A DNA stretch of 64,000 nt from Oscillospiraceae bacterium. GTDB lineage: Bacteria; Bacillota; Clostridia; Oscillospirales; Oscillospiraceae. Shown here one piece after another: positions 54,987 to 63,111 of this stretch. Location: positions 1-64,000 of the forward strand of contig JAJBUU010000011.1 in the NCBI GenBank assembly GCA_020860205.1, read 5' to 3'. The position numbers and the translations under genes are program-made. The first letter of the stretch is position 1, and each line of letters begins with the position of its first letter. Below the pieces are notes generated by a model. The model searched no databases. It was given only the letters and a program-made list of their open reading frames with translations, and was not told where the DNA came from.

Positions 54987-57161
54987 ATGAACAAAGACGA
55001 ATACATCGCCCACCGCGCCGAAGATGGCCGTATCCAGACGGTAAAGGCTCACCTGGAGAAGACCGCCGAGCTGTCGGAAGGGTTTGCCGCCGCCTTCGGT
55101 GCGGCGGAATGCGGCCGTTTGGTGGGACTGATCCATGACATCGGCAAATACTCCCGGCCCTTTCAGCGGCGCATCGCCGACCCGGAGCACGCGCCTCGCA
55201 CTGACCACTCCACCGCAGGCGCACTGGAGGCGTGGCGGCAGAAGTTGGCTCCGGCGGCTTTCGCCGTAGCGGGGCATCACACCGGTCTGCCGGATTACGG
55301 TTCCAGACAAGACACGGCAGACAAATCCACTTTAGCGGGCCGTCTCCGGCGTCAGGTGCCGGATTGCAGTGCCTGGCGGCAGGAGGTAACGCTTCCGCAG
55401 GTATCTATGCCGTCCTATTTGGGGCAGGACAACTTTACCGACAGCTTTTTCACCCGGATGCTCTACTCCTGCCTGGTGGATGCGGATTTTTTGGACACGG
55501 AGGCCTTCATGCAGGGACATCAACCGCGGGGAGAATATGCGCCTCTGTCTGTCCTGTTGGACCGGCTCACCGCCAAAACAGACCGCTGGCTGAACGCCGA
55601 CACCGGCAGTGTTCTCAACCGCAGCCGCAACGACATCCTGCGCGCCTGCATAGACCACGGAAAGCAGTGGCCTTGTGGTCTTTACACCCTCACCGTCCCC
55701 ACCGGCGGCGGCAAGACCACTTCCTCCCTTGCTTTCGCACTTCACCATGCTATAGCGAATCAAATGCAACGGGTCATCTATGTCATCCCCTATACCTCTA
55801 TTATTGATCAAACTGTAGATGTCTTTCAGGGGATTCTGGGGGAGGAAAATGTCCTTGGGCATTACGGCGAGGCTGCTTTCCGCCAAAAGGAACCGGAAGA
55901 CCTGACGCCGGAGGAGTACCGACAGCTGCTGGCGGCGGAGAACTGGGACGCGCCGCTGATCGTCACCACCGCCGTGCAGTTCTTTGAATCCCTCTACGGC
56001 AACCGCAGCTCCCGCTGCCGGAAACTGCACAATATTGCAAACAGCGTTGTCATTTTTGATGAGGCCCAGACGCTTCCGCTCCCTTACCTTCGCCCCTGCG
56101 CTGCGGCCATCGCCCAGTTGGTAGAGCATTACGGCGTCACCGCCGTGCTGTGTACCGCCACGCAGCCTGCGCTTGGCTCGCTGTTTGCTGAACTCGCGCC
56201 CGGACTGCAAATGCAGGAAATCTGTCCCGGCGGCGCAGCGCTCTATCTGACCCTGCGGCGAAACCATGTGAAGGATCTGGGCAGCCTGTCTGTGGAGGCG
56301 CTGACCCTGCGTCTTTGCGCGCATCAGCAGGTGCTCTGCGTGGTCAATCGCCGCAAAACCGCGCAGCAGATCTACACCGGTCTGCCAAAGGATGGTGGCA
56401 GCTTCTGTCTGACCACGCTGCTGTGCGCCGCCGACCGTCGGGCAAAGCTCGTTGAGATTCGGGAGCGTCTCAAAGCTGGTCTCCCCTGCAGGGTGGTGTC
56501 TACTTCGTTGATCGAAGCGGGGGTGGACGTGGATTTCCCTGTTGCATACCGGGAGGTGGCCGGGCTGGACTCCCTTTTGCAAACCGCAGGACGGTGCAAC
56601 CGGGAAGGCCGGGAGACCGATCCCACCCGGCGTCCTGTATATCTGTTTGTTTTAGAGGATGTCGTGCCTCCAAAGATGCTGGAGCCGCAAATCACTGCCC
56701 TCCGCGCCGCACAGCGGGAGTGCGGCGAGCTGGACCTGCCAGACGCCATTGCATACTATTTTCAAACCCTGTACCGTGTCAAGGGGACGGAGGCAATGGA
56801 CAAAAAGAGAATCATGGACGCCTTTCTCCGCGGCTGGGAGGGCGTACAGTTTCCGTTTGCCGCAGTCGCCAGGGCGTTTGAGCTGATCGAATCTCCCACC
56901 CGAACGGTCTATCTGCCCGTCGACGCGGGGAACCCTCTCTGCAAGCAGCTCCAAGCCGGTCAGCGGAGCCGGACGCTCTACCGGAAGCTGGGTCCCTATA
57001 GCGTAGAGGTTTACCAAGAGCAATATGAAGCTCTCTATCGGGTGGGGGCGTTGGAACCCGTTGACGAGCGCTCCGCTGTGCTGACCGCCCTCACATGGTA
57101 TGACCGGGAGACGGGATTGAAATCCGATGCACAGGGCGGGCAGGGACTTTTCTGCGATTAA
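54987..57161 (+). CDS. cas3: CRISPR-associated helicase/nuclease Cas3 (type I-C)
   Basis: HD motif LIHDIGKYSRPFQRR, PTGGGKTTSSLAFALHHA, IFDEAQTLP, helicase C SLIEAGVDVDFPVAYREVAGLDSLLQTAGRCNREG. Confidence 0.96.
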   Translation: MNKDEYIAHRAEDGRIQTVKAHLEKTAELSEGFAAAFGAAECGRLVGLIHDIGKYSRPFQRRIADPEHAPRTDHSTAGALEAWRQKLAPAAFAVAGHHTGLPDYGSRQDTADKSTLAGRLRRQVPDCSAWRQEVTLPQVSMPSYLGQDNFTDSFFTRMLYSCLVDADFLDTEAFMQGHQPRGEYAPLSVLLDRLTAKTDRWLNADTGSVLNRSRNDILRACIDHGKQWPCGLYTLTVPTGGGKTTSSLAFALHHAIANQMQRVIYVIPYTSIIDQTVDVFQGILGEENVLGHYGEAAFRQKEPEDLTPEEYRQLLAAENWDAPLIVTTAVQFFESLYGNRSSRCRKLHNIANSVVIFDEAQTLPLPYLRPCAAAIAQLVEHYGVTAVLCTATQPALGSLFAELAPGLQMQEICPGGAALYLTLRRNHVKDLGSLSVEALTLRLCAHQQVLCVVNRRKTAQQIYTGLPKDGGSFCLTTLLCAADRRAKLVEIRERLKAGLPCRVVSTSLIEAGVDVDFPVAYREVAGLDSLLQTAGRCNREGRETDPTRRPVYLFVLEDVVPPKMLEPQITALRAAQRECGELDLPDAIAYYFQTLYRVKGTEAMDKKRIMDAFLRGWEGVQFPFAAVARAFELIESPTRTVYLPVDAGNPLCKQLQAGQRSRTLYRKLGPYSVEVYQEQYEALYRVGALEPVDERSAVLTALTWYDRETGLKSDAQGGQGLFCD

Positions 57162-57184: not shown

Positions 57185-57213
57185 CGCACGGTGAGGCTCC
57201 TTCTCACCGTGCG
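57185..57213 (-). terminator. Minus-strand intrinsic terminator of the predicted mini-crRNA
   Basis: CGCACGGTGAG-AAGGAGC-CTCACCGTGCG (11-bp stem) then TTTGCTTTTTGG on the minus strand; no T tract on the plus side. Confidence 0.75.
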
Positions 57214-57241
57214 GCTGGATGGAAATCACCATCCTGTAAAT

Positions 57242-57266
57242 ATTTCAATCCACAGCTTTCGCTGAC
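57242..57266 (-). repeat. Solitary degenerate CRISPR repeat inside the cas operon
   Basis: GTC-AGC-GAAA-GCT-GTGGATTGAAAT versus array GTC-GCCCCCC-TCGC-GGGGGGC-GTGGATTGAAAT; identical 12-nt 3' end, same hairpin-plus-handle layout. Confidence 0.88.
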
Positions 57267-57272
57267 CTGACC

Positions 57273-57301
57273 ATTATAATCTTCTTCCCGCCTCTTGACA
57301 A
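57273..57301 (-). promoter_or_regulatory. Minus-strand promoter of the predicted mini-crRNA
   Basis: TTGTCA (57301-57296), 17 bp, TATAAT (57278-57273). Confidence 0.8.
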
Positions 57302-57323
57302 GTAAAATCTTTCGTGTTATACT
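57295..57323 (+). promoter_or_regulatory. Promoter of cas5-cas8-cas7-cas4-cas1-cas2
   Basis: TTGACA (57295-57300), 17 bp, TATACT (57318-57323); -35 overlaps the divergent minus-strand -35. Confidence 0.8.
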
Positions 57324-57340
57324 TCATGCCATGTTGCATT

Positions 57341-57360
57341 ATCACTATCCTATAAATGAA
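57341..57360 (-). promoter_or_regulatory. Predicted Cascade-binding operator: partial protospacer with TTC PAM in the cas5 leader
   Basis: Minus strand TTC|ATTTATAGGATAGTGAT matches guide ATTTACAGGATGGTGAT with mismatches only at positions 6 and 12. Confidence 0.8.
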
Positions 57361-57414: not shown

Positions 57415-58062
57415 TTGTCCATCAAAATCGAGGTCTGGGGGCCATATGCCTGCTTTTCCCGTCCTGAGATGAAGACGGAAAGAGTATCCTATGATATCAT
57501 CACACCCAGCGCCGCACGGGGGCTGATCGAAAGTGTATTCTGGCATCCTGGTATACAGTGGTGTCTGGATCGCATTTACCTGCTCTCCCCCATCCAATTT
57601 ACCAACGTCCGCCGGAACGAGGTGAAGTCTGTGATACCGGGGAGCAGCGTTCTGTCCGTTATGAAAGGGGGCAAGGCGGACCTCGCCATCTACACCTCTC
57701 AGGACATCCAACAGCGAGCCGCCCTGATTTTACAGGATGTCCATTATGTCATTGAGGCGCACTTCAACATGACGGAAAAGGCCGCTCCCGGAGATAACCC
57801 CGGAAAGTTCCAGGAGATGACCCGGCGACGGCTGGCCAAGGGGCAAAATTACAGTACACCATATCTGGGCTGTCGGGAATTTCCTGCCAGTTGCCGGGAG
57901 TGGTCCGGCGGGGAGATCCCCGCCTTGCCGGTGACCCAGGACCTGGGCTATATGCTTCACTCCATGGACTATTCCGACCCTCAAAACATCCGCCCCCGCT
58001 TCTTCCGGGCAAAGCTGGTAAACGGGGTGCTGGATCTGCGGGATTGTGAGGTGGTCTCATGA
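57415..58062 (+). CDS. cas5c: Cas5c (Cas5d), type I-C crRNA-processing endonuclease
   Basis: IEVWGPYACFSRPEMKTERVSYDIITPSAARGLIESVFWHPGIQW; TTG start with AAAGGAG SD. Confidence 0.93.
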   Translation: MSIKIEVWGPYACFSRPEMKTERVSYDIITPSAARGLIESVFWHPGIQWCLDRIYLLSPIQFTNVRRNEVKSVIPGSSVLSVMKGGKADLAIYTSQDIQQRAALILQDVHYVIEAHFNMTEKAAPGDNPGKFQEMTRRRLAKGQNYSTPYLGCREFPASCREWSGGEIPALPVTQDLGYMLHSMDYSDPQNIRPRFFRAKLVNGVLDLRDCEVVS

Positions 58063-59810
58063 TTTTGCAGGCGTTGACCGAATACTATACCGCTCTGTTG
58101 GAGCAGGGCAGGATTTCGCCGCCCGGCTGGGACGCCGCCGCCAGGGTGAGCTATGGTCTGGAGCTGGCCGGGGACGGCACGCTGTTGCAGGCAATCCCAT
58201 ACCAGCGGACGGAGCAGCAGGGCAAGAAGCTGCTGAACAACCGGCTCATGCGCGTTCCCGCTCATGTCAAGCGCTCTGTCGGCGTGGCAGCGAATTTCCT
58301 GTGCGACACCAGTTCCTATCTGCTGGGGGCGGATGGCAAGGGAAAGCCAGAACGCTCATTAAAATGTTTTCTGGCCTGCAAAGAGTTACATCAGCGTCTG
58401 TTGACGGGGGTAGACACACCGGCAGCCCAGGCAATTTTGGCCTTCTTCGACCGCTGGCAGCCGGAACAGGCCGCCGCCCACCCGCTGCTGTCGCCGATTT
58501 GGAAGGAGCTTACCGGCGGAGGGAACCTGATTTTCTGCTTTGGCATGGAACCGGTAACGCAGGACCCTGCCATCCGCCAGGCCTGGCAGACGCACTACAG
58601 CGGCGGGGCGGAGGATGCCGAAATCGGCCAATGTCTGGTCACCGGCGAGGTCGGCCCCATCGCCAGGCTGCACCCTTCCATCAAAGGGGTGCGGGGTGCC
58701 AGTACGATGGGAGCCTCTCTGGTCTCCTTCAATGCTCCGGCCTTCGAGTCCTATGGTCACACCCAGGGCGGCAACGCCCCTGTGGGCGAATACGCCGCCT
58801 TTGCCTACACCACTGCACTAAACGCCCTGCTGGCGGACAGCCAGTACTGTCAGGTCATTGGAGACACCACCGTGGTCTGCTGGGCGCAGCACGGGGAACC
58901 GGCCTACCAGTCTGTGGGTATGATGGGACTGTCTGGCGCGGCTGCGGGCATTGATGACAGCGATCTGTCCGCCGTGCTGCACAAGCTGGCACAGGGAGAA
59001 CCTGTAGTTTGGGAGGGCGTGACCCTGGCTCCGGAGGAGCATTTCTACTTCCTGGGTCTGGCGCCCAACGCGGCCCGGCTGTCGGTGCGGTTCTTTCTTC
59101 GGGACAGCTTCGGCAAATTTATGCAGAACCTGGAAAAGCACTACCAGGACACCGCTATCATCCGTCCCGCCTACGACGCCAGGGAAAATATCCCCCTGTG
59201 GCAGCTGCTCAACGAGACGGTGAACCAGAACAGCCGGACTAAGGCCGCCGCTCCACAGTTGACCGGCGATGTGCTCCGCGCGATCCTCAGTGGCACGCCC
59301 TATCCCGCCACCCTCCTCAATGGCACGGAGCTGCGCATCCGGGCGGAGCGGGAGGTCACACGGGGCCGTGCGGCCATCATCAAGGCGTATTACCTGCGCT
59401 TGCGCAATCCTCACCCTGACTGTCCAAAGGAGATTTTACAGATGGAACTGAACGAAACCAGCACCAACGTCGCCTACACGCTTGGCCGGATGTTCTCGGT
59501 CTATGAACAGATCCAGCAGGCGGCCTATCCTGACATCAATGCCACGATCAAAGACAAGTATTTTAACGCCGCCTCCGCCACCCCAGCCACGGTGTTCCCC
59601 CTGTTGGGCAACCTGGCGGCCAAGCACCTGCGGGTGCTGGCACGGAACAATAAAGGTGCAGCGGTCAACCTGGAAAAAAAGCTGCAAACCCTCTCCGTTG
59701 TCATTGGGGAAGCATACCCAACCCGGCTGAACCTGCAGCAGCAGGGTTCCTTCCAGCTGGGTTACTACTTTGAAAATCAGGCTCGTTATCAGAAAAAGGA
59801 GGAAAAATAA
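58059..59810 (+). CDS. cas8c: Cas8c (Csd1)
   Basis: Position and length; Csd1-like motifs (FFLGLAPNAARLSVRFF, NTAYTLGRMF-type VAYTLGRMFSVYEQIQ). Confidence 0.94.
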   Translation: MILQALTEYYTALLEQGRISPPGWDAAARVSYGLELAGDGTLLQAIPYQRTEQQGKKLLNNRLMRVPAHVKRSVGVAANFLCDTSSYLLGADGKGKPERSLKCFLACKELHQRLLTGVDTPAAQAILAFFDRWQPEQAAAHPLLSPIWKELTGGGNLIFCFGMEPVTQDPAIRQAWQTHYSGGAEDAEIGQCLVTGEVGPIARLHPSIKGVRGASTMGASLVSFNAPAFESYGHTQGGNAPVGEYAAFAYTTALNALLADSQYCQVIGDTTVVCWAQHGEPAYQSVGMMGLSGAAAGIDDSDLSAVLHKLAQGEPVVWEGVTLAPEEHFYFLGLAPNAARLSVRFFLRDSFGKFMQNLEKHYQDTAIIRPAYDARENIPLWQLLNETVNQNSRTKAAAPQLTGDVLRAILSGTPYPATLLNGTELRIRAEREVTRGRAAIIKAYYLRLRNPHPDCPKEILQMELNETSTNVAYTLGRMFSVYEQIQQAAYPDINATIKDKYFNAASATPATVFPLLGNLAAKHLRVLARNNKGAAVNLEKKLQTLSVVIGEAYPTRLNLQQQGSFQLGYYFENQARYQKKEEK

Positions 59811-59811
59811 A

Positions 59812-60711
59812 ATGTCTGAACCCATTAAAAACCGCTATGAATTTGTCATCCTGTTCGATGTGGAAAACGGCAATCCCAACGGTGACCCTGACGCGGGCAA
59901 TATGCCGCGGGTGGACCCGGAGACCGGCTACGGTTTGGTCACTGACGTGTGTCTCAAGCGGAAGATCCGCAACTATGTGGAGGCCGTAAAAGAGGACGCT
60001 CCCGGCTACCGTATCTACATCAAGGACGGCGTCCCCCTGAACCGCAGCGACGCCGAAGCTCTGGACAAGTTTGGCTACAAGGGCGTGGACGAAAAGGGTC
60101 TGAAAGCCGCCAAAAAGGACGACCCCGCCCTGGACGGCAAGGTGCGCGATTTCATGTGCCAGAATTTCTACGATATCCGCACCTTTGGAGCCGTCATGAC
60201 CACCTTCGTCAAGGGCAACCTGAACTGCGGTCAGGTTCGCGGCCCGGTGCAGCTGTCCTTTGCCCGGTCGGTGGACCCCATCGTTCCACAGGAGGTCACC
60301 ATCACCCGCGTGGCCATCACCACTGAGGCGGATGCAGAGCGCAAGGGCACCGAGATGGGCCGTAAATACATCGTCCCCTATGCCCTCTACCGTGCAGAGG
60401 GGTATGTCTCCGCGAATCTGGCTCGTAAGACCACCGGCTTCTCTGAAACCGACCTTTCTCTGCTGTGGGAGGCCATTTTGAATATGTTTGAGACAGACCA
60501 CTCCGCCGCGCGGGGCAAAATGGCTGTCCGCAAACTCATCGTTTTTCGGCACGACAGCGAGCTGGGCTGCGCCCCGGCTTATAAGCTGTTTGACACGGTT
60601 CAGGTCTCCCGCAAAGACCCCGAAGCACCTGCCCGCGCCTATGGGGACTACGCCGTTACGGTGGACACCGCCGCCCTGCCTGCCGGTGTGACCTGTACGG
60701 AGCTGGCCTGA
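59812..60711 (+). CDS. cas7c: Cas7c (Csd2)
   Basis: KNRYEFVILFDVENGNPNGDPDAGNMPRVDPETGYGLVTDVCLKRKIRNYV. Confidence 0.96.
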   Translation: MSEPIKNRYEFVILFDVENGNPNGDPDAGNMPRVDPETGYGLVTDVCLKRKIRNYVEAVKEDAPGYRIYIKDGVPLNRSDAEALDKFGYKGVDEKGLKAAKKDDPALDGKVRDFMCQNFYDIRTFGAVMTTFVKGNLNCGQVRGPVQLSFARSVDPIVPQEVTITRVAITTEADAERKGTEMGRKYIVPYALYRAEGYVSANLARKTTGFSETDLSLLWEAILNMFETDHSAARGKMAVRKLIVFRHDSELGCAPAYKLFDTVQVSRKDPEAPARAYGDYAVTVDTAALPAGVTCTELA

Positions 60712-62873: not shown

Positions 62874-63111
62874 GTCGCCCCCCTCGCGGGGGGCGTGGAT
62901 TGAAATAATTTCATCCGGTGTCTGAATTTGTACATCTTCCGTCGCCCCCCTCGCGGGGGGCGTGGATTGAAATACGCTGATAACACCCAAGTAATCCGCA
63001 TCGGTGTAAGTCGCCCCCCTCGCGGGGGGCGTGGATTGAAATTTGTGGTGTTGGGAATTCTCTCAACGTACTTTCCAAGTCGCCCCCCTCGCGGGGGGCG
63101 TGGATTGAAAT
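62874..63111 (+). CRISPR. Type I-C CRISPR array: 4 identical 33-nt repeats, 3 spacers (34, 36, 36 nt)
   Basis: GTCGCCCCCCTCGCGGGGGGCGTGGATTGAAAT at 62874-62906, 62941-62973, 63010-63042, 63079-63111. Confidence 0.98.

Follow-up and report, generated by a model that had tools for sequence, protein, structure and literature searches.

Why should two short sequences within one intergenic region agree in three runs of five bases and differ at every sixth position? The question is raised by a stretch of 64,000 nucleotides from an Oscillospiraceae bacterium, referred to here as the window, in which the gap between cas3 and cas5c harbours two such sequences, a putative guide and its target. The initial annotation explained the spacing by selection confined to the bases that Cas7 reads. 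The answer that emerges from the comparison of homologous loci is related, though not identical: the minus-strand segment 57301–57185 very probably encodes a type I-C cas-regulating RNA (CreR), which would direct Cascade to repress the operon that produces it. CreRs are crRNA-like RNAs that lead an effector to its own promoter, resulting in repression, and have been described for types I-B, I-E and V-A; in this circuit, the cas genes are expressed more strongly once array crRNAs or anti-CRISPR proteins divert the effector (PMC12737573, PMC13131331).

A predicted guide RNA gene inside a type I-C operon

The window contains an intact type I-C operon, in which cas3, cas5c, cas8c, cas7, cas4, cas1c and cas2 are all recognized by NCBIfam models (Table 1). 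The repeats of the adjoining array, 33 nt in length, are spaced by 67, 69 and 69 nt, so that the spacers measure 34, 36 and 36 nt and are, as had been proposed, longer than the stretch over which the guide pairs. The Cas7 protein displays a phmmer match (E 2e-107) to a Cas7 with solved structures, including 7kha and 8dej, and is the backbone subunit expected to set the six-nucleotide rhythm.

Table 1. Features of the type I-C locus in the window, in order of position
Feature	Position	Strand	Remarks
cas3 (helicase and HD nuclease)	54987..57161	+	Lies upstream of the regulatory gap; scores above cut-off with NCBIfam TIGR01587 and TIGR01596
Intrinsic terminator of guide RNA gene (predicted)	57185..57213	-	11-bp stem, TTTGCTTTTT tail; stem also present in the RNA fold
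Guide, positions 1–18	57224..57241	-	ATTTACAGGATGGTGATT; position 1 = 57241; 1–5, 7–11 and 13–17 match the target
Degenerate CRISPR repeat	57242..57264	-	CAGCGAAAGCTGTGGATTGAAAT; short hairpin and 3' handle GTGGATTGAAAT
Guide RNA promoter (predicted)	57273..57301	-	TTGTCA-17-TATAAT; 11 of 12 consensus bases
cas promoter	57295..57323	+	TTGACA-17-TATACT, TG before the -10; 11 of 12 consensus bases
Target (protospacer), positions 1–18	57340..57357	-	ATTTATAGGATAGTGATA; position 1 = 57357; sequence match
PAM	57358..57360	-	5'-TTC-3'; adjoins target position 1
cas5c	57415..58062	+	NCBIfam TIGR01876
cas8c	58059..59810	+	NCBIfam TIGR01863
cas7 (Csd2)	59812..60711	+	NCBIfam TIGR02589
CRISPR array	62874..63111	+	4 repeats GTCGCCCCCCTCGCGGGGGGCGTGGATTGAAAT, spacers 34–36 nt; 3' of the operon

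Two divergent promoters occupy the cas3–cas5c gap, and their -35 elements overlap (57295–57301; TTGACAA on one strand, TTGTCAA on the other), an arrangement that recurs in homologous loci L008–L012 and L017. As one -35 is common to both promoters, RNA polymerase may serve only one of them at once. The target is located just downstream of the cas -10 element, which corresponds to roughly +10 to +27 relative to a cas transcription start placed according to the -10. It is flanked by TTC, which together with TTT has been reported as a PAM of a type I-C system (PMC10865793) and is a motif accepted by a type I-C effector.

The degenerate repeat stands alone beside the cas genes, outside the array. 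Its 3' part has the same sequence as the array repeat, the handle GTGGATTGAAAT is intact, and a functional crRNA 5' handle appears to be encoded. Copies of this handle in the whole genome amount to four in the array and one at the guide RNA gene, the latter being the sole ectopic copy. The promoter and the terminator of the gene are predicted from consensus, and homologues display the same layout: most of them carry a -10-like element located around -37 relative to the guide, and the arrangement of the degenerate repeat is likewise kept. A search of Rfam returned weak CRISPR-repeat matches only and no match at the guide RNA.

Within this RNA, guide bases 8–13 can pair with bases 20–25 (GGATGG/CCATCC; window 57241–57217, minus strand), the latter lying outside the region of target pairing. 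A comparable guide hairpin of different sequence folds in L006, L007, L008, L010, L011, L012 and L017, and such a structure might act as a gate on access to the guide.

The guide and its target

Re-alignment of the two sites reproduced the three identical five-nucleotide blocks of the initial annotation at positions 1–5 (ATTTA), 7–11 (AGGAT) and 13–17 (GTGAT). The mismatches fall, to the base, at positions 6, 12 and 18, where the guide carries C, G and T and the target T, A and A; none occurs elsewhere within positions 1–18. The match is confined to this pair of sites: the pattern ATTTANAGGATNGTGAT, with one mismatch allowed, retrieves only guide and target in the 1.93 Mb genome, and the reversed pattern used as a control gives no matches. 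For TTCATTTANAGGATNGTGA, searched with up to three mismatches, 0.08 sites per window are expected from shuffling and two are observed, namely the target (no mismatches) and the guide (three mismatches, since the repeat, and no PAM, adjoins it). A CreTA toxin–antitoxin module was considered and set aside: the sole other genomic match of the guide is the site in the cas leader, where no toxin unit was identified.

Survey of type I-C homologues

Type I-C loci were gathered via Cas5c, yielding about 200 regions, some of which overlap. The scan required a repeat-like handle and, directly behind it, an 18-mer of any sequence that agrees with a site close by in 13 positions or more, a procedure that is blind to the position of mismatches. 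One hit (L051) passed this filter, yet resembles an inverted repeat with mismatches at 2, 3 and 5; results were computed with and without it. Its removal, together with that of duplicates, left 34 distinct pairs, and approximately three quarters of the scanned regions show no detectable CreR.

The mismatches of these pairs are concentrated at positions 6, 12 and 18 and are not spread evenly. From position 1 to position 18 their counts are 1, 0, 0, 0, 0, 26, 0, 2, 1, 1, 0, 27, 0, 2, 0, 3, 10 and 27, and from position 19 onward they are at background level. Positions 6 and 12 account for 53 of the 63 mismatches within positions 1–16 (exact P 2e-45 with all 34 pairs; 4e-32 for the 25 pairs whose guides are less than 13/18 identical; 2e-18 for the 17 pairs whose guides are less than 11/18 identical). 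The claim that pairing stops after position 17 is borne out both in the window and in the 34 homologous pairs, in which position 17 is partly eroded and the sequence is random from 18 onward.

Among 38 distinct hits obtained without a PAM filter, TTC was found in 28, TTT in six and CTT in one, so that 34 of 38 carry TTC or TTT. When the same scan was run with 40 permuted handles, a mean of 0.38 hits was recorded, with mismatches evenly spread; as the permuted handles offer fewer anchors than the real one (15 versus 68), scaling puts the number of false hits to be expected among the real ones at about 1.7.

Only the candidate pair of L102 clearly departs from the 6/12/18 rule: its PAM is GTC, and its mismatches lie at 7, 12 and 18. 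In L064, L079 and L085 the target does not cover the start of transcription but immediately precedes a promoter-like -35, its PAM side facing the promoter; the manner in which transcription is blocked may therefore differ in these three loci.

How paired and unpaired positions evolve

Changes were counted on a similarity network of the pairs, a minimum spanning tree. At paired positions 115 concerted changes, affecting guide and target together, were recorded versus eight one-sided changes: complementarity is maintained in the homologues by co-change. Positions 6 and 12 present the opposite picture, with no concerted changes, 34 one-sided ones and seven double changes that are unconcerted. Single comparisons illustrate both patterns: L006 and L007 differ at positions 3 and 8 in guide and target alike, and the sole difference between L010 and L017 is target position 6.

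The frequency with which guide and target agree at the skipped positions is that of chance. Identity at 6, 12 and 18 is seen in 8, 8 and 8 of 34 pairs, versus 7.3, 6.9 and 9.5 for random pairing, and mismatch rates at 6 and 12 are 0.76 and 0.79 in true pairs and 0.78 and 0.78 when guides and targets are mixed across loci. Match rates equal to random pairing indicate that these positions are unread, not mismatched by design. The initial proposal, selection only on bases read by Cas7, thus holds as regards the rhythm, while the mismatches themselves look neutral and not selected. Its wording is also better replaced by 'bases pairing with the crRNA', given that Cascade turns each sixth base out of the duplex while the remaining ones pair.

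Base composition adds a further feature. Of the 68 target bases at positions 6 and 12, 67 are A or T, and so are 101 of 102 when position 18 is included (34 pairs); at target positions nearby and further downstream the share is about three quarters (∼77%). The Fisher P for 6 and 12 against positions 19–28 is 2e-6, and 0.007 in the 17-pair set. Guide bases at 6 and 12 are 59% G/C. Opening a base pair at a flipped position gains no RNA–DNA pair, and an A-T pair may therefore be favoured. It is possible, though doubtful, that natural targets are under selection to carry the A-T pair, the cheaper one to open, wherever a base is flipped, which would amount to a design rule for Cascade binding; no such rule was found in the literature searched. 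The bias could partly reflect the composition of the local promoter, given that AT-richness extends to positions 1, 11 and 17.

Proposed mechanism and alternatives

The anatomy of the locus, the PAM, the pairing, the co-change, the six-nucleotide rhythm and the end of pairing at position 17 are established from sequence. On this foundation a chain of events can be envisaged, whose steps (transcription, processing, loading onto Cascade, repression and absence of cleavage) we infer. Transcription of the guide RNA would start at or near the degenerate repeat, and Cas5c would cleave the repeat hairpin to generate a normal 5' handle. Cas5c, Cas7 and Cas8c would then assemble on the guide RNA, and the resulting complex would bind the TTC-flanked site beside the cas transcription start through blocks 1–5, 7–11 and 13–17. 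Every sixth base would be kept outside the guide/target duplex, leaving positions 6, 12 and 18 free to evolve in both partners. With 15 paired bases only, Cascade positioned on the promoter would block RNA polymerase and would not recruit Cas3 for cleavage. Abundant Cascade would in this way repress its own operon, and repression would be relieved when array crRNAs or anti-CRISPRs draw the complex away.

Binding without cleavage, also suggested by the initial annotation, fits the end of pairing at position 17 and published data on spacer length. In one type I-B system, guides of reduced length bring about repression with neither interference nor primed adaptation (PMC10989794), and by analogy the 17-nucleotide match of the present type I-C system would repress without cleavage.

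Three other explanations deserve consideration. The guide could be a plain antisense small RNA that pairs with the cas mRNA at its 5' leader and needs no Cascade; the window target does lie within the transcript and the guide is complementary to its leader. However, antisense pairing predicts no TTC/TTT motif, no repeat handle and no six-nucleotide rhythm; G-U wobbles would account for just seven of 52 mismatches at positions 6 and 12; and the sites upstream of the promoter-like -35 in L064, L079 and L085 would fall outside that transcript, all of which makes this explanation very unlikely. Chance similarity, or a tandem duplication followed by random drift, draws on the fact that short AT-rich repeats occur near promoters, and for the single window pair the probability that three mismatches fall exactly on 6, 12 and 18 is 1 in 816. 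It is nevertheless refuted by the 34 distinct and unlike pairs that share the rhythm, and hits to permuted handles are rare and lack it; its residual probability is negligible. The statement that neither antisense pairing nor chance would predict the spacing is thereby upheld.

More weight, although still little, can be given to the idea that selection favours the mismatches at 6, 12 and 18 as such, because they would reduce binding or prevent Cas3 cleavage and primed adaptation. None of the 34 loci is matched at both position 6 and position 12, and the opposing composition of target and guide at these two positions (A/T and G/C, respectively) would suit such a scheme. Selection should, however, push the frequency of matches at 6, 12 and 18 below that of random cross-locus pairing, to which it is equal, and this alternative is accordingly improbable.

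Other CRISPR types

Two type I-B loci harbour a CreR-like unit: L185 (minus strand, 1994 onward), where mismatches at 6, 12 and 18 go with a TCA PAM, and L194 (minus strand, 2131 onward), with the same PAM and mismatches at 6 and from 18 onward. The handle of these two type I-B units, written ATTTAAAT or ATGTATTTAAAT, differs from the I-C handle. Many other type I-B loci showed the wrong flank, and a clear CreR was seen in L185 and L194 only.

Type V-A (Cas12a), whose effector is devoid of Cas7, served as a negative control. Seven loci yielded one credible CreR (L155), in which a stand-alone repeat is followed by a guide that matches a TTTA-flanked site contiguously at positions 1–11, position 6 included. 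The direction is right, but as it comes from a single locus no claim is drawn.

Comparison with known systems

The guide/target pairs of regulatory RNAs offer a free readout of the bases that an effector reads, usable for subtypes that lack a structure, and the combination of handle, PAM and 5-1-5-1-5 match provides a strong signature for finding more such RNAs. As judged from sequence, the case for CreR-type autorepression is strengthened for type I-C, a very common subtype. CreR in type I-C was not found in the literature searched, in which CreR is covered by summaries (PMC12737573, PMC13131331), and neither were mismatches at every sixth position nor a positional evolutionary test in CreR. 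That Cascade skips every sixth base is already known from structures and mutants, as is, from earlier work, the CreR class in types I-B, I-E and V-A; the type I-C members and the position-resolved evolutionary evidence are new, with priority uncertain.

The unit described here resembles known CreRs in its stand-alone degenerate repeat and guide beside the cas operon, in the partial complementarity to the cas promoter region, in the PAM on the target side and in the predicted autorepression. It departs from those of types I-B, I-E and V-A in that the effector is type I-C. In addition, a single repeat is followed by a terminator hairpin, with no second repeat, and the creR and cas promoters of this clade have one -35 in common.

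CreA of the archaeal type I-B CreTA module is a further relative, with a degenerate repeat and a partial match to a promoter. Its critical bases have been mapped by mutation to positions 1–5 and 7–11 (PMC8501985); position 6 is thus exempt, and these blocks correspond to the first two of the three found here. CreA represses a toxin gene through about ten critical pairs, whereas the present guide has a cas target and 15 pairs, and the CreA study does not include a position-by-position evolutionary test.

The mechanism behind the rhythm is supplied by the flip-out rule of Cascade. Flipping of every sixth base is documented for type I-E in vivo (PMC5904413), in seed libraries (PMC12871591) and for a type I-F3 CAST (PMC12774636); the last of these studies invokes the rule to account for a naturally occurring guide/target mismatch at position 12. 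The crystal/cryo-EM structure of type I-C Cascade reveals seven Cas7 subunits on the crRNA (PMC7684278; PDB 7kha); that work does not deal with regulatory guides, and the protein solved there is closely homologous to the Cas7 encoded in the window. In vivo off-target sites of Escherichia coli Cascade match position 6 above chance (45%) (PMC5904413), unlike the pairs analysed here, in which this position is at chance level. Whereas the flip-out studies report biochemical or single-guide observations, the present evidence is evolutionary and spans many loci: natural evolution mirrors the skip rule of Cascade, with guide and target co-evolving base by base except at positions 6, 12 and 18.
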